From a virus: a DNA stretch of 20,545 nt. The translations under genes were made by a program, and so were the position numbers. The notes beneath the pieces were generated by a model, which did not search any database, had not been told where the DNA came from, and saw only the letters and a program-made list of their open reading frames with translations. The stretch is from positions 1 through 20,545 of IMG/VR virus record IMGVR_UViG_3300004770_000143, one strand, 5' to 3'. Positions 1,058 through 20,545 of the stretch are shown piece after piece; positions within the stretch are counted from its first letter, which is position 1; each line of letters begins with the position of its first letter.

Positions 1058-4000
1058 ATGGCAATTCAAATACAATTACGAAGAGGTACTTCTGCTCAAT
1101 GGGCTGCAGCTAATACAATATTAGCACTTGCAGAATTGGCGATTGAAATAGATACTTCTTTATTTAAAGTTGGTGATGGTTTAACACATTGGTCTGATCT
1201 TCCTTATGGAGGTATACGTGGTTATACTGGATCACAAAGTACTGTCATAGGTTATACAGGATCAAGAGCATATACTGGTTCACAAGGATATACTGGTTCG
1301 TATGGTCCTATAGCTGGTTCTGATTCTCAAGTTGTATTTAATAATAATGGTGTTGCTAATGGTAGCCCCGGTTTTACTTTCAATTCATCAAGCAATACAC
1401 TAACTGTATCAAATACAGTATCATCCACAAGTTATATTTTATCTGCAAATCTTACAAATAATAATTCACAAATAACCGGTCCAACTATAGGATTGGGATA
1501 TGGCGTCAATACTTTGCAAAATGGACCTGGAACATATCCATGGTTTTTTCCACAAGGTAGTCCTTATGCTACACCACAAACTTTCTTTTTTGCAAACAGT
1601 TCACAAATACAATTAGGCAACAACTCATCTTACTTTAATCTTACTTCTAGCAAATTAGAATTTCTCGATATAAATGGAAATCCAGCTGGTACATTAAAAG
1701 TAAATGAAATATATGCCAATAATCAACTTGGAACATCTGCACAAATACTAACATCAAATTCTACTGGTGGAATATATTGGAATTCTTCTTTTGCTGGAAC
1801 CGCTAACAATACTCTTTATGTTGGCTCTGTTTCAGCTGCAAATGTTGTTTCAAATTCACAACTGTCTGGTAATCTAGCATATTATACCAACACTACTTTA
1901 TTAACAGCTAATTTAAATACTACATATGCTAATTCTGTTCTTTACACAGATACTAAGATTGGATTAGTAAATACTTATATATCAACAAGTGTAGCAACTT
2001 CTTATTTAAATTCCGTAAATCATACAGACACTGTTATTGGTTATGTAAATACTGCAATAACTGCAAATGCATCTGCAGCATATTCTAACTCTGTATATCA
2101 TACTGATACTGTTATTGGTTTAGTCAATACTGCAATAACTGCAAATGTATCAGCTGCTTACAGTAATTCAGTAAATCATACAGACACTGTTATTGGTTAT
2201 GTAAATACTGCAATAACTGCAAATGCAAGTTCAGCATATAGCAATTCAGTCTATCATACTGATACTGTTATTGGTTTAGTCAATACTGCAATCACTGCAA
2301 ATTCTGCTACTGCTTATTCAAATGCAGTCTATCACACCGACACAGTAATTGGTTTAGTCAATACTGCAATCACTGCAAACGCATCATCTGCTTATAGTAA
2401 TTCGGTTTATCATACTGATACAGTAATTGGTTTAGTCAATACTGCAATAACTGCAAACGCATCTGCAGCATATTCAAACTCTGTTGCTCACACAGACACT
2501 GTAATTGGTTTAGTCAATACTGCAATCACTGCTAATGCAAGTTCAGCGTACAGCAATTCAGTCTATCATACTGATACAGTAATAGGGTTAGTCAATACTG
2601 CTATTACATCAAATTCTTCTACTGCATACAGTAATTCTGTTCTTTACACAGATACTAAGATTAGTTTAGTCAATACTGCAATAACTGCAAACGCATCTGC
2701 AGCATATTCAAACTCTGTTGCTCACACGGACACAGTAATTGGTCTTGTAAATACAGCAATAACTGCAAATGCATCTGCAGCGTATAGCAATTCAGTCTAT
2801 CATACTGATACAGTAATTGGACTTGTAAATACAGCAATAACTGCAAATGCATCTGCAGCATATTCTAATGCAGTATTGTATGTCAGCAATCAATTCTATG
2901 TAAATACTTCACAACTATCAAGTAATCTTTCAAATTATCAAACAACTGCTGGTCTTTCTGGTAACGTTGCTTTACTTTCTGCTAATAATGCATCTTATCT
3001 TGGTGGTGTTGCTGCAGCATCTTATATTAATACGTCTGGTTCTTATACAATAACTGGTGTTCATACTCATAATGCAAATCTTATTGTTAATGGTGTTCTT
3101 GCTGTAAATAATGAAATTGTTTCTGGAAATGGGTTCTATTCAAATTCAACTTTTGCTGGTTCTCCTGTTTACGGAGATGGCATTGTTATGGATTATATTA
3201 CTGGAAATGGTAGAATATCTGTTGGATCAGCTGATGGTTTGACATTATATACTGGTGGTGTTGCTAATATTGTTATGGCAATTGCTAATACTACAGGATT
3301 ATACGTTAATGGCGTTGTTAATGCAACTTCATTTACTGGAACAGCCAATAATACTTTGTTTGTTGGTGCGGTTTCGGCTGCAAATGTTGTTTCTAACGCA
3401 CAATTAATTGCAAATTTAGCAAATTATCAAACAATATCTGGTCTTTCATCTAGTGTATCAAATTTAACTTCTAATAATACAGCATATGTTGGCGATGTTT
3501 CAGCTGCAAATGTTGTTTCTAACTCACAGTTACAAGCAAATCTTGCAAATTATGCTGCTCTTTCTGGTGCAACATATGGCGGTGCAGTAGTTATTAATAA
3601 TAATCTTACTGTTTCTGGAAATGTTTCCATAGGTGGCAACTTAACATTTACTGGAAATACTTTTATTATTGGTGCAAACAATCTTATTGTTCAAGACGCT
3701 GTTATAAGTCTTCATACTGCAGCAAATCTTGCTCCTCTTACAGGAAATGATGGAAGATTAGTTGGTACTGCTTTCCATTATTTTGATACACAAGATAGAC
3801 AAGCTTTGCTTGTTATAAATCCAGCAAATTCTGTTTTAACTTATTATAACAATTCGACAGATGCTGCAGCCGGAGACCCTGCTGGTCTTACACTTGGTAT
3901 TATTCAAGCAAATAGTTTTATTGCTGGTAACTCTACAATATTTACTACAACAACTTCGACTAATTATTCTGGAACTGCAAACAATACAACATATGCTTTT

Positions 4001-6553
4001 GGAAAAACTGAAGGCAATCTTAATGTAAATAATTCTACATATGCTTTTGGAAAAACTGAAGGCAATCTTAATGTTAATAATGCAGTAACAGCAAACAATT
4101 CTTCTTATTTGAATAATAAATCAGAAGCTAATTTAAATGTTAATAATGCAGTAACATCTAATAATGCATCTTATTTAAATAATAAATCAGAAGTTAATTT
4201 AAATGTTAATAATGCAGTAACATCTAATAATGCATCTTATCTTGGTGGTGTAGCAGCAAGTTATTATACTAATACTTCTGGTGCATATACTATCACGGGT
4301 GTATATACACATAATGCAAATCTTGTTATAAATTCTGAAATTATTGCTGGTAGTACTTCTGGAAGTGTTGGACAAGTATTAACATCAAACGGAAGTTCTA
4401 ATAAAGTATATTGGTCAACACTTCCTTCTGTTACTGTAAGAAGCACCAATGGTAATGGGGGAGCAGTTAATACTTCTGTTTCTGGAATTACTGGAATTAA
4501 TTTTGATGAATCTACTGGTCTTCATGTAACGGATCAGGGTTCTGGAAATGTATTTGTAAGTCTTGGGTCTGGATATAAGTATATCAATGTCGCTGGTCAA
4601 AGTATAATAACTGCATTTGGTGAAGATACTCTTACAGTTGCAAATGGATACGCAGTCATTCTGACTACTAATAGTATATCAAAAACTTTGACTATTGGTA
4701 CAGATTTATCAAGTTATCAGGCAATATCTGGATTAGCTGGTAATGTTGCTTTACTTTCTGCTAATAATGCATCTTATCTTGGTGGTGTTGCAGCTGCAGC
4801 TTATGTCAATACTTCTGGAACATATACTTTAACTGGAACATATACTTTTAATACTGTTCTTAATACTTCAAATGGTATTCTATCATCAAATTCTATCAAT
4901 GTTGGAACACTTGGTGATGCTGCAAACTTAGTAACAATTTCGCCTTATTATAATATTCCCGGTCAACTTACATCTGCATTTATTGCTCTTGGTGATCCCG
5001 GCGTGAATGGACCCGGTGGTCGTTCAATATATGCTCCACAAGGAAGTATATTTGCAACACAGACTGATTTGTTTTTTGCTAATGCATCACTTCTTCAGAT
5101 GGGCAATAACACTGTATATACAAATCTGACTCCCGGTGGTCTAGCTTTAACTGGTGCTACTTCATCTATAAATCTTGGATCAAATTTTTCAGTTAATAAT
5201 TCAACTATAACATTTACAAATTATAAAATATCTGCAAATGGTTCTTATGGAACTGACACACAAGTATTGAAAGCAAATTCTACTGGTGGTGTATTTTGGG
5301 GAACAGGTATATCAGGATTTACTGGATCACAAGGTAATTTGGGATATACTGGATCACAAGGTAATCAAGGATATGCCGGTTCGCAAGGAACAACAGGATT
5401 TGTCGGATCACAGGGAAATCTTGGTTATGCCGGATCACAAGGCAATTTAGGCTATGCTGGATCAACAGGATTTGTTGGATCACAAGGAACAACTGGATTT
5501 GTTGGATCACAAGGAACAACTGGATTTGTTGGATCACAAGGTAATTTTGGATACGCTGGTTCACAAGGCAATTTAGGCTATGCTGGATCAACAGGATTTG
5601 TTGGATCACAAGGAACAACTGGATTTGTTGGATCACAAGGAACAACAGGTTTTGTTGGTTCGCAAGGAACAACAGGTTTTGTTGGTTCGCAAGGCAATCT
5701 TGGTTATGCAGGATCAGTAGGGTTTGTTGGTTCGCAAGGTTCTCAAGGATATTGGGGTTCAACTGGATTTGTAGGTTCTGCGGGAACAAGTGGTGGAACT
5801 GGATTTACTGGATCACAAGGAACTCAAGGAACAACAGGAAACTCAGGGTTTGTTGGATCACAAGGTGGAACTGGATATACTGGATCACAAGGAAATCTTG
5901 GCTACACAGGATCATTTGGATCGACCGGATATACAGGTTCTGTTGGCGTTGGATATGCTGGTTCTTCTGGTTATACGGGATCAATCGGAACTGGGTATGT
6001 TGGTTCATTAGGTTATTCTGGTTCTATAGGAAATATTGGTTACACAGGATCAGCTGGTTCTGGAACTGGTGGTGGATTTTCAAATGGGCAATCAATATCA
6101 GTAAATAATATTGTTATTACTGGTTCGCTCACTGCTAATAGTTCTAATGGTGTGACTGGTCAGGTATTGACATCTAATGGTAGCGCTACTTATTGGGCGG
6201 CAGCATCTAGTAGCGGTCAGTATACACCGAGAGTATCAAGCACAGCATCTGCTTCTTCTGTTACACCAACCACAGCATCATATGATTTGTATGTATTTAC
6301 AGCATTAGCTGCAACACTGACAATTAATGCTTCAACGTTTTTACCAACTAATGGTACTAAGTTAATGTTTAGAATTAAAGATAACGGTACTGCTCAAACA
6401 CTAACCTGGACAACTACAGGTTCAGGTTCTTTTCGTATTCTTGGTACAACATTACCAACAACAACTACAGTCAATAAAGTAACATATATTGGTTGTGTAT
6501 ATAATTCAGACGAATCTTACTGGGATGTTATCGCAGTTGGAACACAAGCATAA
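1058..6553 (+). CDS. Giant repeat-built tail fibre protein (1831 aa) with Mtd-like N-terminus and collagen-like stalk
   Basis: Domain order is readable directly. Residues 1-50 (IQLRRGTSAQW...FKVGDGLTHWSDLPYGG) match the N-terminal domain seen in major tropism determinant and many phage fibre proteins. Residues ~51-84 are a short GYTGSQ collagen-like run. Residues 296-607 are twelve tandem 26-residue repeats. A middle region reuses modules such as GTANNTLYVGSVSAANVVSN, NNASYLGGVAA and GQVLTSNGS-YW. Residues ~1420-1673 are a long G-x-y collagen-like stalk rich in GSQ. The last ~100 residues (from PRVSSTASASSVTP to WDVIAVGTQA) resemble a C-terminal domain common in phage fibres. The product is very probably a long trimeric host-contact fibre on the virion. 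The start follows a late promoter box; its ribosome binding site is weak (TATGGG). No signal peptide or membrane segment is seen. Confidence 0.9.
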   Translation: MAIQIQLRRGTSAQWAAANTILALAELAIEIDTSLFKVGDGLTHWSDLPYGGIRGYTGSQSTVIGYTGSRAYTGSQGYTGSYGPIAGSDSQVVFNNNGVANGSPGFTFNSSSNTLTVSNTVSSTSYILSANLTNNNSQITGPTIGLGYGVNTLQNGPGTYPWFFPQGSPYATPQTFFFANSSQIQLGNNSSYFNLTSSKLEFLDINGNPAGTLKVNEIYANNQLGTSAQILTSNSTGGIYWNSSFAGTANNTLYVGSVSAANVVSNSQLSGNLAYYTNTTLLTANLNTTYANSVLYTDTKIGLVNTYISTSVATSYLNSVNHTDTVIGYVNTAITANASAAYSNSVYHTDTVIGLVNTAITANVSAAYSNSVNHTDTVIGYVNTAITANASSAYSNSVYHTDTVIGLVNTAITANSATAYSNAVYHTDTVIGLVNTAITANASSAYSNSVYHTDTVIGLVNTAITANASAAYSNSVAHTDTVIGLVNTAITANASSAYSNSVYHTDTVIGLVNTAITSNSSTAYSNSVLYTDTKISLVNTAITANASAAYSNSVAHTDTVIGLVNTAITANASAAYSNSVYHTDTVIGLVNTAITANASAAYSNAVLYVSNQFYVNTSQLSSNLSNYQTTAGLSGNVALLSANNASYLGGVAAASYINTSGSYTITGVHTHNANLIVNGVLAVNNEIVSGNGFYSNSTFAGSPVYGDGIVMDYITGNGRISVGSADGLTLYTGGVANIVMAIANTTGLYVNGVVNATSFTGTANNTLFVGAVSAANVVSNAQLIANLANYQTISGLSSSVSNLTSNNTAYVGDVSAANVVSNSQLQANLANYAALSGATYGGAVVINNNLTVSGNVSIGGNLTFTGNTFIIGANNLIVQDAVISLHTAANLAPLTGNDGRLVGTAFHYFDTQDRQALLVINPANSVLTYYNNSTDAAAGDPAGLTLGIIQANSFIAGNSTIFTTTTSTNYSGTANNTTYAFGKTEGNLNVNNSTYAFGKTEGNLNVNNAVTANNSSYLNNKSEANLNVNNAVTSNNASYLNNKSEVNLNVNNAVTSNNASYLGGVAASYYTNTSGAYTITGVYTHNANLVINSEIIAGSTSGSVGQVLTSNGSSNKVYWSTLPSVTVRSTNGNGGAVNTSVSGITGINFDESTGLHVTDQGSGNVFVSLGSGYKYINVAGQSIITAFGEDTLTVANGYAVILTTNSISKTLTIGTDLSSYQAISGLAGNVALLSANNASYLGGVAAAAYVNTSGTYTLTGTYTFNTVLNTSNGILSSNSINVGTLGDAANLVTISPYYNIPGQLTSAFIALGDPGVNGPGGRSIYAPQGSIFATQTDLFFANASLLQMGNNTVYTNLTPGGLALTGATSSINLGSNFSVNNSTITFTNYKISANGSYGTDTQVLKANSTGGVFWGTGISGFTGSQGNLGYTGSQGNQGYAGSQGTTGFVGSQGNLGYAGSQGNLGYAGSTGFVGSQGTTGFVGSQGTTGFVGSQGNFGYAGSQGNLGYAGSTGFVGSQGTTGFVGSQGTTGFVGSQGTTGFVGSQGNLGYAGSVGFVGSQGSQGYWGSTGFVGSAGTSGGTGFTGSQGTQGTTGNSGFVGSQGGTGYTGSQGNLGYTGSFGSTGYTGSVGVGYAGSSGYTGSIGTGYVGSLGYSGSIGNIGYTGSAGSGTGGGFSNGQSISVNNIVITGSLTANSSNGVTGQVLTSNGSATYWAAASSSGQYTPRVSSTASASSVTPTTASYDLYVFTALAATLTINASTFLPTNGTKLMFRIKDNGTAQTLTWTTTGSGSFRILGTTLPTTTTVNKVTYIGCVYNSDESYWDVIAVGTQA
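1943..2878 (+). repeat. Twelve in-frame tandem 78-bp repeats in the giant fibre gene
   Basis: Exactly 936 bases divide into twelve 78-base units encoding 26 residues of the form HTDTVIGLVNTAITANASAA followed by YSNSVY. Units 1 and 10 start YTDTK instead of HTDTV. Units 2 and 4 share a near-identical stretch of over 50 bases (starting at 2021 and 2177), and units 1 and 10 share the bases just before and into TACACAGATACT. The array therefore appears to have been shuffled by recombination rather than grown only by neighbour duplication. Confidence 0.9.
3985..4245 (+). repeat. Short duplicated modules in the giant fibre gene
   Basis: A 16-residue unit (TYAFGKTEGNLNVNN with one preceding residue) occurs twice in tandem, followed by two 22-residue units of the form AVTSNNASYLNNKSEVNLNVNN and a third start that switches into SYLGGVAA. 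The SYLGGVAA module itself recurs around 2990 and 4770, each time leading into a Y-x-NTSG-x-YT-x-TG stretch. The pattern is modular duplication in a fibre shaft. Confidence 0.8.
5315..6076 (+). repeat. Collagen-like G-x-y repeat block in the giant fibre gene
   Basis: About 250 residues have glycine at almost every third position, dominated by GSQ, GYT, GYA, GFV and GTT triplets. Many 18-27 base stretches are repeated exactly, for example the unit encoding GTTGFVGSQ, which occurs seven or so times. The regular pattern also leaves spurious open frames on both strands. Confidence 0.9.
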
Positions 6554-11023: not shown

Positions 11024-11530
11024 ATGGAACAACTTATTGAAAGCATGAAAGTTTTACATGCTACTAACTTTGCCTTTTATCTTAAGATTCATTTCTTTCA
11101 CTGGAATGTTACTGGTCCTAATTTTCCTCAGTATCATAAATTTTTTCAAAAACTTTATGAAGAAATTTTTGATTCTGTTGATTCTGTTGCTGAACACATC
11201 AGAGCAATCGAAGGTTATGCTCCCGGTTCTTTCCAAAGATTTAAAGAATTGTCTTTGATTCAAGATCAAATTGAAGTTATTCCTGCTTCCCAGATGTTCA
11301 ATCAAGCTTTATCTGATAATAATACTGTTATTATAGCTTTAAAAAATTCTTATAAACTTGCAAATGCCCAAGGCGAAGTTGGGTTAGCAAATTTCCTTCA
11401 AGATAGAATTGATACACATAAGAAGCATGGGTGGATGCTTCGTTCCACAGATGGAATTAGTTCTTTGGCCGTTGATGGAGCAAATGCTGTATCAGCTGAT
11501 ATGAGTGGACATATTTCAACAACAGTCTAG
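11024..11530 (+). CDS. dps: Dps-like ferritin (DNA-protection during starvation family)
   Basis: The 168-residue product fits the Dps family, which forms 12-subunit cages that oxidise Fe(II), often with hydrogen peroxide, store iron and sometimes bind DNA. Residues 16-60 contain HWNVTGPNF, YHKFF and DSVDSVAEHIR. The ferroxidase ligands H26, H38, D53 and E57 have spacings of 12, 15 and 4, the same as H31, H43, D58 and E62 in Listeria Dps. The later helices are less conserved, and the end (DGANAVSADMSGHISTTV) is not a lysine-rich DNA-binding tail. AAGGG lies at 11011-11015 before the ATG. It sits between presumed virion genes and behind a possible late promoter, so late expression is likely. 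It could protect phage DNA or handle iron, or have been recruited as a virion or assembly protein; the choice is inference. Confidence 0.8.
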   Translation: MEQLIESMKVLHATNFAFYLKIHFFHWNVTGPNFPQYHKFFQKLYEEIFDSVDSVAEHIRAIEGYAPGSFQRFKELSLIQDQIEVIPASQMFNQALSDNNTVIIALKNSYKLANAQGEVGLANFLQDRIDTHKKHGWMLRSTDGISSLAVDGANAVSADMSGHISTTV

Positions 11531-12470: not shown

Positions 12471-14186
12471 ATGCCAAAAATTACAGAATTAAATTCTATT
12501 GTAAATGTTTCTGGTACTGATTTACTTGCGATAGTACATGATCCTAATGGCGCACCCTCTACTAATAAAATAAAAATTGTTGATTTTGCAAATAGTATAT
12601 CACAGACTATAACTGCAAATATTGTTTTTTCTAATACTACTATAATCACAAGAAACTATGGTGAACCTTTAGTTCTTGCATCAAATGGCTCATCAGTTAA
12701 CATTAATACAAATACAGATGTTAACTGGTCATTTGATAATACTGGTTTATTAAATTTAATATCAACCACGTATGGGACTGAAATTGAAATTGGTCAAGGC
12801 ATGGGACCAACAATTCTTGCAAATGGTTCATTATATACTTATTCATATTATACTAACACAGAAACAAATGAAAATTGGGATCAAGGAAATCTTGTTTATC
12901 CAGGAGCATCTCAAATATGGACTGAATATTACGGAAATACTAGTACTTCTGATTCTTATAGAGCTACTGTTTTGTCAATGAATTCTAATTATGGAAATTA
13001 TGGTGTTAATGTATATATTGCAAATAATACGTTAAGTCAAAATTGGAATTTCACTATTGATGGTAATTTATCAATACCTCCTACTGGAGATATTATACGT
13101 AACGGTAATTCTGTTATTACATTACCAATGTTGACACCAAAAATTCAATATACTGGCGTATGGAATGGTTATCCTTTTATTATGAATCTTCTAAAAGGAA
13201 GAGCAATAATATACAATTCAAATAATTACATTCTTGAGTCTAAAACAAAATATTGGATGGCCGATAGATTCTACACTGGAGATTCTGATCTTAGTGGAAC
13301 AGAAACAATAACTTTTTCTAATATTGGCGGAATTGATAATTATTTTTCAGTCGGTGGAAAAGGCGAAGTAATTCTTTCTAATATTGATCTAGATGGTCTT
13401 GATGTAATAACTCAATATGTAAATATTGCATATTTACCTTCATTAACATCATTTAGTGCAAATAATTTAGCTTTTGTGGGCGGCAATTTTACCATTCATG
13501 ATATTAGTAATACCTCAACAACATTTAATTTTTCAAATTTAGTCCATATAGATGGGAATTTATATATAACAAATAATTATTATCTTACTAATTATCCTCA
13601 ATTTCCCGCACTACAAGAAGCTGGCGTATTAAATTATTATTATAATTATTCTATAACCGATTATCCAAGATTTAATTCACTTGAATATTGTGCTTCCATG
13701 TTTTTTTATAATAATCCCGGTTTATCTTCTGGTACTCAATTTGATGAATTGAGATCAACACATAATATATATTTTAATTCTAATGTAAATATGGCAAATC
13801 CACCAACTTTTCCTGAATTAGAATTAATCACTGGGTATCTTGAAATTTCAAATAATCCGATTATGACTACTGCACCAGCATTTCCTTTATTATCAATTTG
13901 TGATCAATATATTAATTTTGATAATAATATATCTATGGTCAATGGGTTCAATTTTAATTCTATTAAACAAATATTTGGCGATTTTACTGCATATAATTGT
14001 GCATTAGATCAAGCTTCTGTTGATTATATTTTAAATTTATTAGCTAGTTTAGATGGAACAAATGGAACTACTATGTATAGTTATAATATAAATTTGAGTG
14101 GTGGTACAAGTTCACCACGTTCTTCTGCATCAGATACAGCATATGCTATTCTTATTAGCCGTGGCTGCACAATTTATTTAAATTAA
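12471..14186 (+). CDS. Fibre-like virion protein with leucine-rich-repeat-like region (571 aa)
   Basis: Residues 1-40 (ITELNSI..GTDLLAIVHDPNGAPSTNKI) look like an N-terminal attachment domain common to phage fibre-type proteins. Residues ~84-215 contain two 'W-x-F-D/I-x-x-G-x-L' units (NWSFDNTGLLNL, NWNFTIDGNLSIPPTGDI), typical of fibre shafts. Residues ~275-510 are irregular repeats of about 22-25 residues with hydrophobic strands and NN or SNN turns (LEISNNPIMTTAPAFPLL, LYITNNYYLTNYPQFPAL), resembling leucine-rich repeats of the BspA or receptor-L type. Residues ~511-571 (LDQASVDYILNLLASLDG then NLSGGTSSP and SRGCTIYLN) match a terminal domain often found in phage proteins. LRR-type surfaces bind proteins or glycans, so receptor recognition is a reasonable inference. 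An AAGGG site precedes the start. Confidence 0.8.
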   Translation: MPKITELNSIVNVSGTDLLAIVHDPNGAPSTNKIKIVDFANSISQTITANIVFSNTTIITRNYGEPLVLASNGSSVNINTNTDVNWSFDNTGLLNLISTTYGTEIEIGQGMGPTILANGSLYTYSYYTNTETNENWDQGNLVYPGASQIWTEYYGNTSTSDSYRATVLSMNSNYGNYGVNVYIANNTLSQNWNFTIDGNLSIPPTGDIIRNGNSVITLPMLTPKIQYTGVWNGYPFIMNLLKGRAIIYNSNNYILESKTKYWMADRFYTGDSDLSGTETITFSNIGGIDNYFSVGGKGEVILSNIDLDGLDVITQYVNIAYLPSLTSFSANNLAFVGGNFTIHDISNTSTTFNFSNLVHIDGNLYITNNYYLTNYPQFPALQEAGVLNYYYNYSITDYPRFNSLEYCASMFFYNNPGLSSGTQFDELRSTHNIYFNSNVNMANPPTFPELELITGYLEISNNPIMTTAPAFPLLSICDQYINFDNNISMVNGFNFNSIKQIFGDFTAYNCALDQASVDYILNLLASLDGTNGTTMYSYNINLSGGTSSPRSSASDTAYAILISRGCTIYLN

Positions 14187-14199
14187 AAAGGTTTAAAAT

Positions 14200-14901
14200 A
14201 TGTCATCTATAATAGTGTCTACAAGTGGAACTTCTGGAACTCCTAAAAGAATAGAATTGACTGATGCAATTATGACAGCAAGAATCGCTACTATTGCAAC
14301 TGCAAAAGGGATTCATATTTCAAATTGCAAAGTAATAAATGTTGCATGGGATAAAGATTCATCATCTGCAGTTCGTTTTGCAGAATGGGGGAAACAAACT
14401 GGTAAAAAAATTATTGGTATTGTTCCTGTAAATCAAATTGTAGAAACTTTTATAAAAGAAAAAGTTGATTGTATTTTTGGTGCGCCAGCATATCTTGTTC
14501 GTGTTGCACAATTATTTCAAGAAACTGGTAAATCAGCTGGTCTATTACAAATAATAACTGGCCATGTAGCTATATCTGATAAGGATGTGGCTTTTATTAA
14601 AAAATGGTTATGTAAAAATATTCAAGTAAATTATGGATGTAGTGAAATTGGAACAATAGCTTCTGCAACTGTAGAACAGATCGAAGATACAGATGGTTGT
14701 GTAGGATTTCCTCTCCCAAATGTTCAAGTCGAAATTGTAAATGGCGGGTATATTCGTATAAAGTCACCAACAACTATGGTAACTGAATATGTAGATGATC
14801 CAGAGAGTACTGCTAAATATTTTATTGACGGATGGTTTTATCCCGGTGACACAGGCTATTTTACAAAAGATGGTAGATTAGTAATTACAAAGAATAGATA
14901 A
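14200..14901 (+). CDS. Minimal adenylate-forming (ANL / acyl-CoA synthetase-like) core domain
   Basis: The 233-residue product carries the central motifs of ANL enzymes, which activate a carboxylate with ATP to an acyl-AMP. Seen are the A3 phosphate loop STSGTSGTPK at residues 7-16, a GAPAYLVRVAQL helix at 94-105, the A5 motif NYGCSE at 144-149, the A6 region GCVGFPLPNV at 166-175, and the A7 aspartate in YPGDTGYF at 214-221 (D217). The protein ends at KNR, where the A8 hinge arginine normally starts the mobile C-terminal domain. The usual ~150 N-terminal residues and the ~110-residue C-terminal domain with the catalytic lysine are both absent; an in-frame stop two codons upstream and the flanking genes leave no remnant. 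It follows a fibre gene by 13 bases. It may be a stand-alone acyl-AMP or nucleotide-binding protein, a partner of a separate domain, or a decayed import that remains intact as an ORF. Confidence 0.8.
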   Translation: MSSIIVSTSGTSGTPKRIELTDAIMTARIATIATAKGIHISNCKVINVAWDKDSSSAVRFAEWGKQTGKKIIGIVPVNQIVETFIKEKVDCIFGAPAYLVRVAQLFQETGKSAGLLQIITGHVAISDKDVAFIKKWLCKNIQVNYGCSEIGTIASATVEQIEDTDGCVGFPLPNVQVEIVNGGYIRIKSPTTMVTEYVDDPESTAKYFIDGWFYPGDTGYFTKDGRLVITKNR

Positions 14902-14906
14902 ATTTT

Positions 14907-15296
14907 ATGGATAAATTGGATGAGTCAAATTTTTTATTATATGCAGCAAAACATTATGAAAATACACAATGCTATGACACCATAGAATTTTATGATGATT
15001 TAAAAAGATTTAAGTATATAAAAAGATTATTTAATAGATATGCAGAAGAAGGCGATTTGAAAGAGAGATTGATATTAAATCATATCATAATTCTCAATAA
15101 TGTATTTGGACCAGAAGCAACATCTAAAATGTTGTTTTTGAAATGCAGAGGGCTAGAAGAATATTTAAAACCATTTCTTTTATTTTTAAATATTCTTCCA
15201 GAAAAAATAGAAAATGTTGGTATAGATAATAGAACTATATACACATTAGAAATAAAAATGAATACTTATATTCTAGAACAACTAAGGAAGATATAA
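14907..15296 (+). CDS. Conserved phage protein of unknown function (129 aa, DUF7207-like)
   Basis: The sequence is mostly helical and reads FYDDLKRFKYIKRLFNRYAEEGDLKERLILNHIIILNNVFGPEA, a pattern I recall from a family of short proteins (DUF7207) in T4-like phages of aquatic bacteria. The start is five bases after the preceding stop, with no strong ribosome binding site, so translation is probably coupled to the upstream ANL-like gene. The stop is one base before the next start. No membrane segment, signal peptide or catalytic motif is visible. The function is unknown; the family name comes from memory and should be treated as tentative. Confidence 0.75.
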   Translation: MDKLDESNFLLYAAKHYENTQCYDTIEFYDDLKRFKYIKRLFNRYAEEGDLKERLILNHIIILNNVFGPEATSKMLFLKCRGLEEYLKPFLLFLNILPEKIENVGIDNRTIYTLEIKMNTYILEQLRKI

Positions 15297-17573: not shown

Positions 17574-17737
17574 AATATTCATCAGAAATACAAACAGACG
17601 AAAATGGAGAGTTGTTCATCATTATTCCTGATGATCTAATCAAAGAACTTGATTGGAAAGAAGGAGATGTGTTACAATGGTCTGTTGAAGGCAATACAGC
17701 AATTTTATCACGTAATGAGGCAGAGAAGAATGATTAA
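17570..17737 (+). CDS. AbrB/MazE-like small DNA-binding protein (55 aa)
   Basis: This short gene fills the space between primase and nrdA. It has GGAG at 17560-17563, six bases before the ATG, overlaps the primase stop by ATGA, and overlaps the nrdA start by eight bases. The product, MKYSSEIQTDENGELFIIIP followed by DDLIKELDWKEGDVLQWSVE and GNTAILSRNE, has the swapped-hairpin AbrB pattern: a basic start, a short beta-strand ending in IP, a helix 'LIKELDWKEGD', and two closing strands. AbrB-fold proteins include antitoxins (MazE) and transition-state regulators. No toxin gene is adjacent, so a regulatory role in the early operon is the simpler inference. Confidence 0.75.
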   Translation: MKYSSEIQTDENGELFIIIPDDLIKELDWKEGDVLQWSVEGNTAILSRNEAEKND

Positions 17738-19193
17738 TACAGTTCTAGTAACAAAAAGAAACGGTACAAAAGAACATTTAGACTTGGCTAAATTCCATAA
17801 AGTTGTTTCTTGGGCATGTGAAGGAATTAACGGTGTTTCAGAATCAGAAATTGAATTGAAGTCTCAAATTCAATTTTATAATGGCATCAAGACAACTGAT
17901 ATTCAAGAAACACTAATTAAGGCTTCAGCTGACCTTATTTCAGAAGATAATCCCGGTTATCAGTATGTTGCTGGTCGTCTCATCAATTATCATATCAGAA
18001 AGCAGGTTTATGGTGACTATAATGTTCCTACTCTCAATAATCATATTGATAACGTTATTGGCGCAGGATATTATGACAAAAGTATTAAAGAATGGTATTC
18101 TGCTTCTGATCTTGCTACTCTTAATACTTACATTGATCACAAGCGAGACTTTTCTATCGCTTATGTTGGCATGGAACAGTTTCGTGGCAAGTACCTAATC
18201 AAAAACCGTTCAACTGGTCAGGTTTTTGAAACGCCGCAGTTTGCCTACATGCTTATCGCAATGGTGCTTTTCCGTAATTACCCAAAAGAAACCCGTTTGA
18301 AATGGGTAAAGGATTTATATGATGCAACATCTACTTTTGAAATATCGTTGCCGACTCCTATTATGGCAGGTCTCCGTTCGCCTCAGAAGCAATTCTCTTC
18401 GTGCGTTCTTATCGAAGCAGGTGACAGTCTTGATTCAATTTCTGCAACAGCTTCCGCAGTCGTTAAGTATGTTTCTCAAAAAGCTGGTATCGGTATTAAT
18501 GCTGGTCGTATTCGTGCTATCGGCTCTCCTATTCGCTCTGGTGATACTACGCATACTGGTGTCATTCCTTTCTACAAGCACTTCCAAAGTGCAGTTAAAT
18601 CGTGTTCACAAGGCGGTGTTAGAGGCGGTGCGGCAACTCTTTATTACCCTATCTGGCATTTGGAAGTCGAAGATTTGTTGGTATTGAAGAACAATAAGGG
18701 CACAGAAGATAATCGTATCCGTGGCTTGGACTATGGTGTCCAATTTAATAAGGTGATGTATGAAAGACTTCTCACAGGAGGTAACATTACCCTCTTTTCT
18801 CCTAACGACGTTCCTGACTTGTATGACTCTTTTTTTATTGATACTGACAGGTTTAGAAATTTATACGAGTCTGCAGAACAAAACCCAGCAATTAGAAAGA
18901 AAACAATACCAGCCATTGAACTCTTCTCAGGATTCATGCAAGAGAGGAAGGATACCGGACGTATTTATCTGCAGAATGTAGATCACGCTAATGATCATGG
19001 ATCGTTCATTAAGGAGTTAGCACCTATTCGCATGTCAAATTTGTGCACAGAAATAACTTTGCCGAGTTTTCCTCTTAATGATATTAACGATGGTAAACCA
19101 GTTAAGAAGCATATCAAAATGACCAAAGCTGACTATGAAAAATATTTGATTTGGCGTAAAAATAATCCAAATACACCTCTCCCCAATTCATAG
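17730..19193 (+). CDS. nrdA: Ribonucleotide reductase class Ia large subunit, N-terminal piece (NrdA-a)
   Basis: The 487-residue piece makes up the first part of the NrdA subunit that, with NrdB, reduces ribonucleoside diphosphates to deoxyribonucleotides. I start it at 17730 because GAGG at 17717-17720 precedes it and because this gives E. coli-like numbering: FSSC is C225, and SNLCTE gives N437, C439 and E441, identical positions to E. coli NrdA. An upstream in-frame ATG at 17649 would overlap the AbrB-like gene. Residues ~5-95 form the allosteric ATP cone (VTKRNGTKEHLDLAKFHKVV onward). After ITLPSFPLND the sequence departs from ordinary NrdA and runs ~37 residues (DGKPVKKHIKMTKADYEKYL onward) to a stop. 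The second redox cysteine lies in a separate gene after an endonuclease insertion. Confidence 0.9.
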   Translation: MINTVLVTKRNGTKEHLDLAKFHKVVSWACEGINGVSESEIELKSQIQFYNGIKTTDIQETLIKASADLISEDNPGYQYVAGRLINYHIRKQVYGDYNVPTLNNHIDNVIGAGYYDKSIKEWYSASDLATLNTYIDHKRDFSIAYVGMEQFRGKYLIKNRSTGQVFETPQFAYMLIAMVLFRNYPKETRLKWVKDLYDATSTFEISLPTPIMAGLRSPQKQFSSCVLIEAGDSLDSISATASAVVKYVSQKAGIGINAGRIRAIGSPIRSGDTTHTGVIPFYKHFQSAVKSCSQGGVRGGAATLYYPIWHLEVEDLLVLKNNKGTEDNRIRGLDYGVQFNKVMYERLLTGGNITLFSPNDVPDLYDSFFIDTDRFRNLYESAEQNPAIRKKTIPAIELFSGFMQERKDTGRIYLQNVDHANDHGSFIKELAPIRMSNLCTEITLPSFPLNDINDGKPVKKHIKMTKADYEKYLIWRKNNPNTPLPNS

Positions 19194-19197
19194 CAGA

Positions 19198-19205
19198 TAT
19201 AAATA
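19198..19205 (+). promoter_or_regulatory. T4-type late promoter box TATAAATA ahead of the endonuclease
   Basis: An exact TATAAATA lies five bases after the nrdA-a stop and 23 bases before the endonuclease start. An AAGGAG site at 19215-19220 follows with eight-base spacing. This gives the nuclease its own late expression within an otherwise early operon, as known for several T4-family homing endonucleases. Confidence 0.7.
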
Positions 19206-19228
19206 GTTGTGAAGAAGGAGACACAACT

Positions 19229-19837
19229 ATGATTACACTTTATGTTAAAACTCACAGAGTTACAGGATTAAAATACCTTGGTAAAACAGAAAGAGACCCA
19301 TATACGTATTCTGGTTCTGGTATTAGATGGAAACGAGAATTAAACAAATATGGTAATGATGTTGAAACTGAGGTATTATTTCAATCTGAAAATATTGAAG
19401 ATATTAGAGAAAAGGGATTGTATTATTCTGAGCTATGGAATATAGTTGAATCTAGTGAGTGGGCAAATTTCATAGAAGAAAATGGTTCTGGTGGAGATAC
19501 TTCAAAATATAATGATTATAAAGCAATTTCTGAGAAGTTGAAAGGTGTTCCTAGACCTAGAACAAAAGAACATCAAGATGCTTTGACTAAATCTTTAAAG
19601 GGTCAAAAAGCTTGGAATAAAGGAATAAAAACTGGTCCTGTTAGTGAAGAAACTAAAAAGAAACATACATTAGCTAGAACAGGTCAGAAACGTGGAAAAT
19701 ACATATTACACAAAGAACCACACGGAACAAAACATCTGCAAGGAAAGAAAGCTAGTTGCTTGTGCTGTCATAGAGAATTTGATCTGGGCAATTTAGCTAA
19801 ACATTTAAGGAAAAAAGAAAATGAATCTACCATTTAA
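19229..19837 (+). CDS. Free-standing GIY-YIG homing endonuclease
   Basis: The 202-residue product belongs to the GIY-YIG nucleases that cut an uninterrupted allele and spread their own gene. The variant core is visible as TLYVK (Y5), KYLGKT (Y16-L17-G18), YSGSGIRWKREL (candidate catalytic R33 or R36), and the segment EKGLYYSELWNIVESSEWAN with candidate catalytic glutamates near 61-74. Residues ~101-152 contain two NUMOD3-like DNA-binding modules (SEKLKGVPRPRTKEHQDALT and GPVSEETKKKHTLARTGQKR). The C-terminus has a zinc-finger-like CLCCHREFDLGNLAKHLRKK. The late promoter and the AAGGAG site favour late expression. Its last 17 bases overlap the start of nrdA-b in another frame. The assignment to nuclease family is firm; activity is inferred. 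Confidence 0.9.
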   Translation: MITLYVKTHRVTGLKYLGKTERDPYTYSGSGIRWKRELNKYGNDVETEVLFQSENIEDIREKGLYYSELWNIVESSEWANFIEENGSGGDTSKYNDYKAISEKLKGVPRPRTKEHQDALTKSLKGQKAWNKGIKTGPVSEETKKKHTLARTGQKRGKYILHKEPHGTKHLQGKKASCLCCHREFDLGNLAKHLRKKENESTI

Positions 19838-20545
19838 CTTTGAAGTTGTAACAGAGGTAGCTAGAGATGATACTGAACATGTATATGTATTTGATGAAGA
19901 ATTTGAAAGTGAATCAGAAGCAGAGATTAGCCTCTGTACGCTTTCGGCAATAAACTGGGGGAAAATTCGTGATCCTGCTGATTTTGAACGTCCTTGTACT
20001 CTTGCTGTTCGTGCTTTGGACGAGCTACTTGACTATCAAGATTACCCTGTCTTGGCTGCTAAAAATTCAACTATGGCCAGACGTCCTCTTGGTGTTGGTA
20101 TTATTAACCTCGCTTATTGGTTGGCTCGCAATGATCTTAGCTATCAGCATATTGATCACGATGGGTTGAATAAACTTCATGCGTATGCTGAGGCTTGGTC
20201 TTATTATCTTATCAAAGCATCAGTTGATTTGGCGGAGGAAAAAGGTGCGTGCCCGAAAAGTAATGAAACAAAATACAGTCAAGGTTTGTTCCCCATACAT
20301 ACCTACAAGAAAGAACTGGACGAAATTGTATCGCCTGCGTATCGCATGGACTGGGTTTCATTGGGCGATAAGGTTCAGTCTGTCGGCATCAGAAACTCAA
20401 CGCTTATGGCTCTCATGCCATCAGAAACATCAGCACAGATTAGCAACGCAACAAATGGTATTGAGCCACCAAGATCGCTTGTCTCTGTTAAACAGTCTAA
20501 AGATGGCGTCCTTAAACAAGTTGTACCAGAAGTTCGTAAACTTAA
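19821..20545 (+). CDS. nrdA: Ribonucleotide reductase class Ia large subunit, C-terminal piece (NrdA-b), 3' end outside window
   Basis: This frame opens with ATG at 19821, with AAGG at 19807-19810 upstream, and runs off the window end after 241 codons. The first ~33 residues (MNLPFNFEVVTEVARDDTEH onward) are not ordinary NrdA. From ISLCTLSAINWG the match to NrdA is clear: C39 here corresponds to E. coli C462, the redox partner of C225. Further NrdA landmarks are AVRALDELLDYQDYP, LGVGIINLAYWLA and the substrate phosphate loop PSETSAQISNATNGIEPPRS. The tyrosine pair of the radical-transfer path and the C-terminal cysteines should lie beyond the window. It must act with NrdA-a to rebuild one active site. 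Because it lacks its own promoter, it can be made from the early transcript and also from the late transcript that starts at the endonuclease. Confidence 0.9.
   Translation, partial: MNLPFNFEVVTEVARDDTEHVYVFDEEFESESEAEISLCTLSAINWGKIRDPADFERPCTLAVRALDELLDYQDYPVLAAKNSTMARRPLGVGIINLAYWLARNDLSYQHIDHDGLNKLHAYAEAWSYYLIKASVDLAEEKGACPKSNETKYSQGLFPIHTYKKELDEIVSPAYRMDWVSLGDKVQSVGIRNSTLMALMPSETSAQISNATNGIEPPRSLVSVKQSKDGVLKQVVPEVRKL

Follow-up and report, generated by a model that had tools for sequence, protein, structure and literature searches.

The locus described here raises the question of what a bacteriophage would do with a gene that encodes only a fragment of an ANL (AMP-binding) enzyme. The window, by which we mean the whole 20,545-nucleotide stretch that was analysed (IMG/VR record IMGVR_UViG_3300004770_000143), comes from a T4-superfamily phage, since its primase is closest among named phages to those of Stenotrophomonas phage DLP6 and Sinorhizobium phages phiM7 to phiN3 (44-45%). 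The frame in question is intact and, as the sequence-only reading had held, sits between tightly packed genes, starting 13 bases past the stop codon of a fibre gene and ending 5 bases before the start of a DUF7207 gene. Fusion to the fibre by readthrough was considered and rejected, as the two open reading frames lie in different frames in the window. The features on which the argument turns are as follows.

12471..14186, plus strand: receptor-binding fibre with a Receptor-L (leucine-rich) C-terminal part (PF01030, 3e-5), the probable partner
14200..14901, plus strand: minimal ANL (AMP-binding) core protein of 233 aa (PF00501, 7e-14), with boundaries conserved in relatives
14218..14247, plus strand: A3 phosphate loop STSGTSGTPK, residues 7-16, read directly
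14563..14565, plus strand: His122, family specific by alignment
14629..14646, plus strand: A5 motif NYGCSE, residues 144-149, placed by alignment
14830..14850, plus strand: A7 motif GWFYPGD, residues 211-217, invariant in all six copies
14884..14901, plus strand: end of the ANL N-domain, ITKNR plus stop, with N232 at the canonical A8 Arg position (placed by alignment with 28 full-length cores and by structural alignment to solved ANL enzymes)
14907..15296, plus strand: DUF7207/phrog_407 gene, the downstream anchor of the slot (PF23837, 1.1e-37; phrog_407, 1.2e-36)

The 26-kDa product is confirmed as a real ANL fragment. Its PF00501 match scores 51.8 bits against a cut-off of 29.9 and covers profile positions 169-357 of 384, and a sequence search of the PDB placed the McbA group best (E 9e-13, residues 4-230); the PHROGs collection gave no match for the four copies that were searched. 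The protein opens with MSSIIVSTSGTSGTPK, that is, with the A3 loop, its first residue lying just ahead of the P-loop, and it stops at the hinge before the C-terminal domain that carries the A10 lysine, so that the minimal core proposed from the letters alone was borne out. Two details of that proposal required amendment. Motifs A3 to A8 had been reported, and A3, A5, and A7 (PGD) do occur at normal spacing, but A8 is represented by its opening residues only, and its canonical Arg position is occupied by Asn. The cut had also been called clean at both domain boundaries; this holds at the C terminus, where the end of the predicted model falls on the final N-domain residues of solved ANL enzymes, but not at the N terminus, where residue 1 aligns to residues 141-193 in most of the solved enzymes compared, which places the cut inside the large N-domain, with its first lobe of approximately 140-190 residues missing.

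An AlphaFold2 model built from 34 sequences, including 28 full-length cores, reached a pLDDT of 93.6 and a pTM of 0.88 and superimposed on solved ANL enzymes with a Z of ~22 over 226 residues, corresponding to about residues 160-410 of those enzymes; Foldseek ranked McbA (E 9e-18) and MenE (3e-17) at the top. When the six minimal sequences were supplied alone, the pLDDT fell to 57.7, with confidence mainly over residues 40-140, and the 34-sequence model thus leans on full-length relatives and is no proof that a core lacking the first lobe would be stable. Closure of the ATP site, on which the initial proposal had been staked, is therefore predicted with confidence when full-length homologues are aligned but not from the minimal family by itself.

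The window copy is one member of a family. Part of the 157-kb contig IMGVR_UViG_3300025723_001543 matches the window at 99.98% identity, and for this reason the two were counted as one population rather than as two observations. Four further intact copies of 232-233 aa were found in IMG/VR, at 60% (59.5%; L071), 54% (L072), 54% (L087), and 53% (L088) identity to the window copy, and a sixth, L073, is truncated at a contig end. All six share the stop position and, where it is readable, the start, which gives matching limits in five independent populations in addition to the truncated copy. Among 27 relatives from a scan of bacterial genomes, the homologous frames read were ~475 aa or more, except for one (L115) that runs into the end of its stretch. 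In the tree, the minimal proteins are monophyletic, with bootstrap support of 100 and a stem of 1.33 substitutions per site, and dN/dS for the L087/L088 pair is 0.10. These comparisons indicate a maintained protein under purifying selection, and the view that the short form is not a product of random decay was upheld by the conserved boundaries, open frames, low dN/dS, and long common stem; full-length homologues from which this copy had recently been deleted did not appear, its relatives having the same limits. A search of the openly accessible literature yielded no report of a minimal ANL protein carried by a phage. Matches in the named-phage collection were set aside as probable bacterial DNA: the five that were read are full-length or edge-cut ANL proteins on UNVERIFIED records, and those whose surroundings were inspected have bacterial-looking neighbours.

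The residues of the ATP site have largely been retained. G10, T11, S12, G13, and K16 of A3 are invariant among the five full copies, as are Y145, G146, and E149 of A5, and apart from the replacement of S9 by Thr in L071 the P-loop, the YGxTE motif, and the A7 Asp are present and unchanged in every one of them. Across 12 ATP-site positions fixed beforehand from general ANL knowledge, 11 are invariant, whereas over the whole protein 85 of 233 columns are (hypergeometric 8e-5); this tally counts R233 as the A8 Arg, although the alignment places it one residue past that position and its role is uncertain, and it speaks for retention of residues rather than proving function, as conservation at these sites is a general feature of ANL proteins. 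The Arg of the (D/G)R motif in A8 is replaced by Asn or Thr across the five full copies (N232 in the window copy, Thr in L072), with an Arg one residue later, and only the partial copy L073 keeps "GR". Other positions distinguish the family: His122 is invariant in the five minimal copies and absent from all full-length rows compared, which mostly have Gly there, and it may narrow the pocket. S54, S55, W63, and W136 are likewise family specific, K69/K70 being less certain owing to gap placement near residues 67-72. The acyl pocket of known ANL enzymes is built mostly after the P-loop, so by analogy the minimal core could hold both ATP and acyl ligands.

The readable copies also agree in the position of the gene. 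In all five readable cases, the ANL gene directly follows a Receptor-L fibre and precedes DUF7207, and the expectation that homologues would occupy the same place was met in other T4-superfamily contigs; Mtd_N, the N-domain of the major tropism determinant, is present in the fibres of L072 and L087. We collected 77 loci that are anchored by DUF7207 and extend upstream of it, of which 64 are distinct. Because the Pfam model missed L088 despite its 86% identity to L087, a missing Pfam match by itself says little about absence, and the 77 slots were therefore screened with the family's own HMM. Among the 64 distinct slots, the ANL gene is present in 5 and the Receptor-L fibre in 7, the 5 falling entirely within the 7; the fibre thus accompanies 5/5 ANL slots and 2/59 others, with a Fisher p of 3e-6 that is uncorrected for kinship and locus-finding bias and overstates the association, because four of the five ANL loci (all but the window) were found through the ANL search and several are related. 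The solid part of the association is that each readable ANL copy has a Receptor-L fibre. A search with the C-terminal part of this fibre alone recovered these seven loci and nothing else. In the two exceptions, L005 and L006, the Receptor-L fibre is followed 8 bases on by DUF7207 with no ANL gene between them, although their primases are 88-89% identical to that of the window; the ANL gene therefore comes and goes relative to the phage backbone, and not every Receptor-L fibre needs the protein. Between the window and L071, the ANL proteins are 59.5% identical, far more than the primases (39.6%) or the fibres (39.7%), which likewise speaks for a maintained protein.

Elsewhere in related phages, the slot region is empty or houses a LamG, fibrinogen-like, pirin, or pro-kumamolisin protein. 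A pirin-like cupin follows the fibre gene, in or near the slot, at L007:7333-7956 (PF02678, 9.7e-21) and L011:3684-4307, at L018:2222-3130 the fibre gene is followed by one whose product has a pro-kumamolisin activation domain (PF09286), and a DUF6817/HD_4 protein lies between fibre and DUF7207 at L141:707-1141.

We tentatively favour, at somewhat short of an even chance, the reading in which the core is a nucleotide- or adenylate-binding accessory or modifier of the Receptor-L adhesin. This preference follows from position: in T4, Mu, and R-type pyocins, the gene immediately behind that of the fibre encodes a fibre chaperone or tip protein (PMC7289586). T4 gp38, Mu Tfa, and V22 gp27 are, like the phage core, products of small genes directly downstream of a receptor-binding fibre (PMC7289586), although no sequence relation to them was detected with PHROGs. 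The direct basis is family identity, conserved boundaries, selection, and neighbourhood. We suggest a phage-specific, conserved minimal ANL family serving one type of receptor-binding fibre, which would have lost the first N-domain lobe and the whole mobile C-domain while keeping the P-loop, A5, and A7 of the ATP site together with what is the acyl-pocket region of full-length ANL proteins. Such a core would bind nucleotide or acyl-adenylate and would act on or with the adhesin encoded just upstream, in the gp38/Tfa position and probably at the time of late gene expression. It might carry out adenylate chemistry on the fibre (handing an acyl group to a neighbouring nucleophile does not in principle require the C-domain), or it might alternatively serve in nucleotide-dependent folding or decoration of the tip. 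The modification of a virion protein, already raised as an option, draws circumstantial support from the strict adjacency to a single adhesin type, but proximity alone could keep the fibre and ANL genes together. Also counting against the favoured reading are the two Receptor-L fibres that lack an ANL gene, the changed A8 Arg position, His122, and the low confidence of the fold when the minimal sequences are aligned by themselves. The boldest version, in which an ANL protein pared down to its ATP and acyl site modifies or gates the phage's own receptor-binding fibre by adenylate chemistry without a C-domain, strikes us as improbable as it stands. Should the core serve the adhesin, a metabolic enzyme fold would have been recruited into phage host recognition, and the pirin and pro-kumamolisin proteins near the same place in related phages may be considered alongside that reading. 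Should it bind nucleotide and act alone, it would represent a naturally occurring ANL protein that lacks the first N-lobe as well as the C-domain, and one could learn from it which portion of the fold adenylation requires.

Behind the adhesin accessory or modifier comes a free-standing adenylating enzyme, carried as cargo for some small acid or lipid of host or phage and merely tolerated in a variable slot. The retained ATP-site residues would suit such an enzyme, as would the pirin, pro-kumamolisin, and DUF6817/HD_4 proteins of the slot region in other phages and the full-length ANL pairs on other environmental phage-like contigs; we nevertheless regard it as unlikely, given the strict association with one fibre type and the altered A8 Arg position. 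Nor were the expected companions seen: PF13193, the ANL C-domain, had no match in five contigs, and neither a PF00550 carrier domain nor a second PF00501 piece was found in the 157-kb contig, itself possibly incomplete and among the five.

Rather unlikely too, and a little behind the cargo enzyme, is purely structural reuse, with the ANL fold serving as a fibre tip or assembly protein that binds no nucleotide and keeps its motif residues for stability. The gp38/Tfa position and similar size (PMC7289586), the family-specific H122, S54, S55, W63, and W136, and the loss of the C-domain needed for normal catalysis are all compatible with such a role. Set against it is the conservation of ATP-site residues beyond the average column, including K16, E149, and D217, which we take to be mainly catalytic, although this pattern is general to ANL proteins and so is not decisive.

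The suggestion that the protein is half of a split enzyme, completed in trans by a host-encoded C-terminal domain, accords with a frame that stops at the hinge, but nothing was found behind it: the first N-domain lobe is missing too, no phage-encoded C-domain was found, and the literature searched offered no precedent, making it very improbable. That the gene is the decaying remnant of a full-length ANL gene, shorter as it is than the bacterial relatives read through, can be dismissed, for shared limits in five populations at 53-60% identity and conserved intact copies under selection argue strongly against recent deletion or decay.

Comparison with known systems places the core nearest to the N-domain of the ANL acyl-CoA synthetases, McbA, and MenE, with which it shares sequence, P-loop, A5, and A7 residues, and, in the model built with full-length relatives, the predicted fold; it differs from them in the missing N-terminal residues, the missing A10-lysine domain, the Asn/Thr of A8, and His122. 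Another short phage ANL protein, the 214-aa "AMP-dependent synthetase/ligase" of an uncultured Caudovirales phage (BFVD A0A6J5L770), has TM-scores of 0.68/0.73 to the model of the core but is only 14% identical in sequence and is annotated automatically only; the same comparison returned giant-virus entries named arylamine N-acetyltransferase. The tandem ANL pairs L074, L076, and L077 are also ANL enzymes on environmental phage-like contigs but are ~490 aa each, retain the C-domain, and lie in another gene neighbourhood, and neither the first copy of L074 nor that of L077 is sister to the minimal family in the tree. Tandem full-length pairs (~490 + 492 aa) on environmental phage-like contigs, with stop and start overlapping by a base, were noted at L089:5764-8708, L090:7059-10126, and L091:6563-9501.

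Other parts of the window merit brief mention. In 17649-20545, the frame of the ribonucleotide reductase large subunit stops at 19193 and is followed by a 202-aa ORF (19229-19837) that has no Pfam match at 0.001 and could be an intervening element; a search of this region against Rfam found no intron family. Positions 1058-6553 encode a fibre of 1831 aa with an Mtd_N start and collagen-like repeats. A ferritin/Dps-like protein (11024-11530; PF00210, 4.5e-24) is encoded among the structural genes, and similar-looking proteins are present in L008, L009, and L088.
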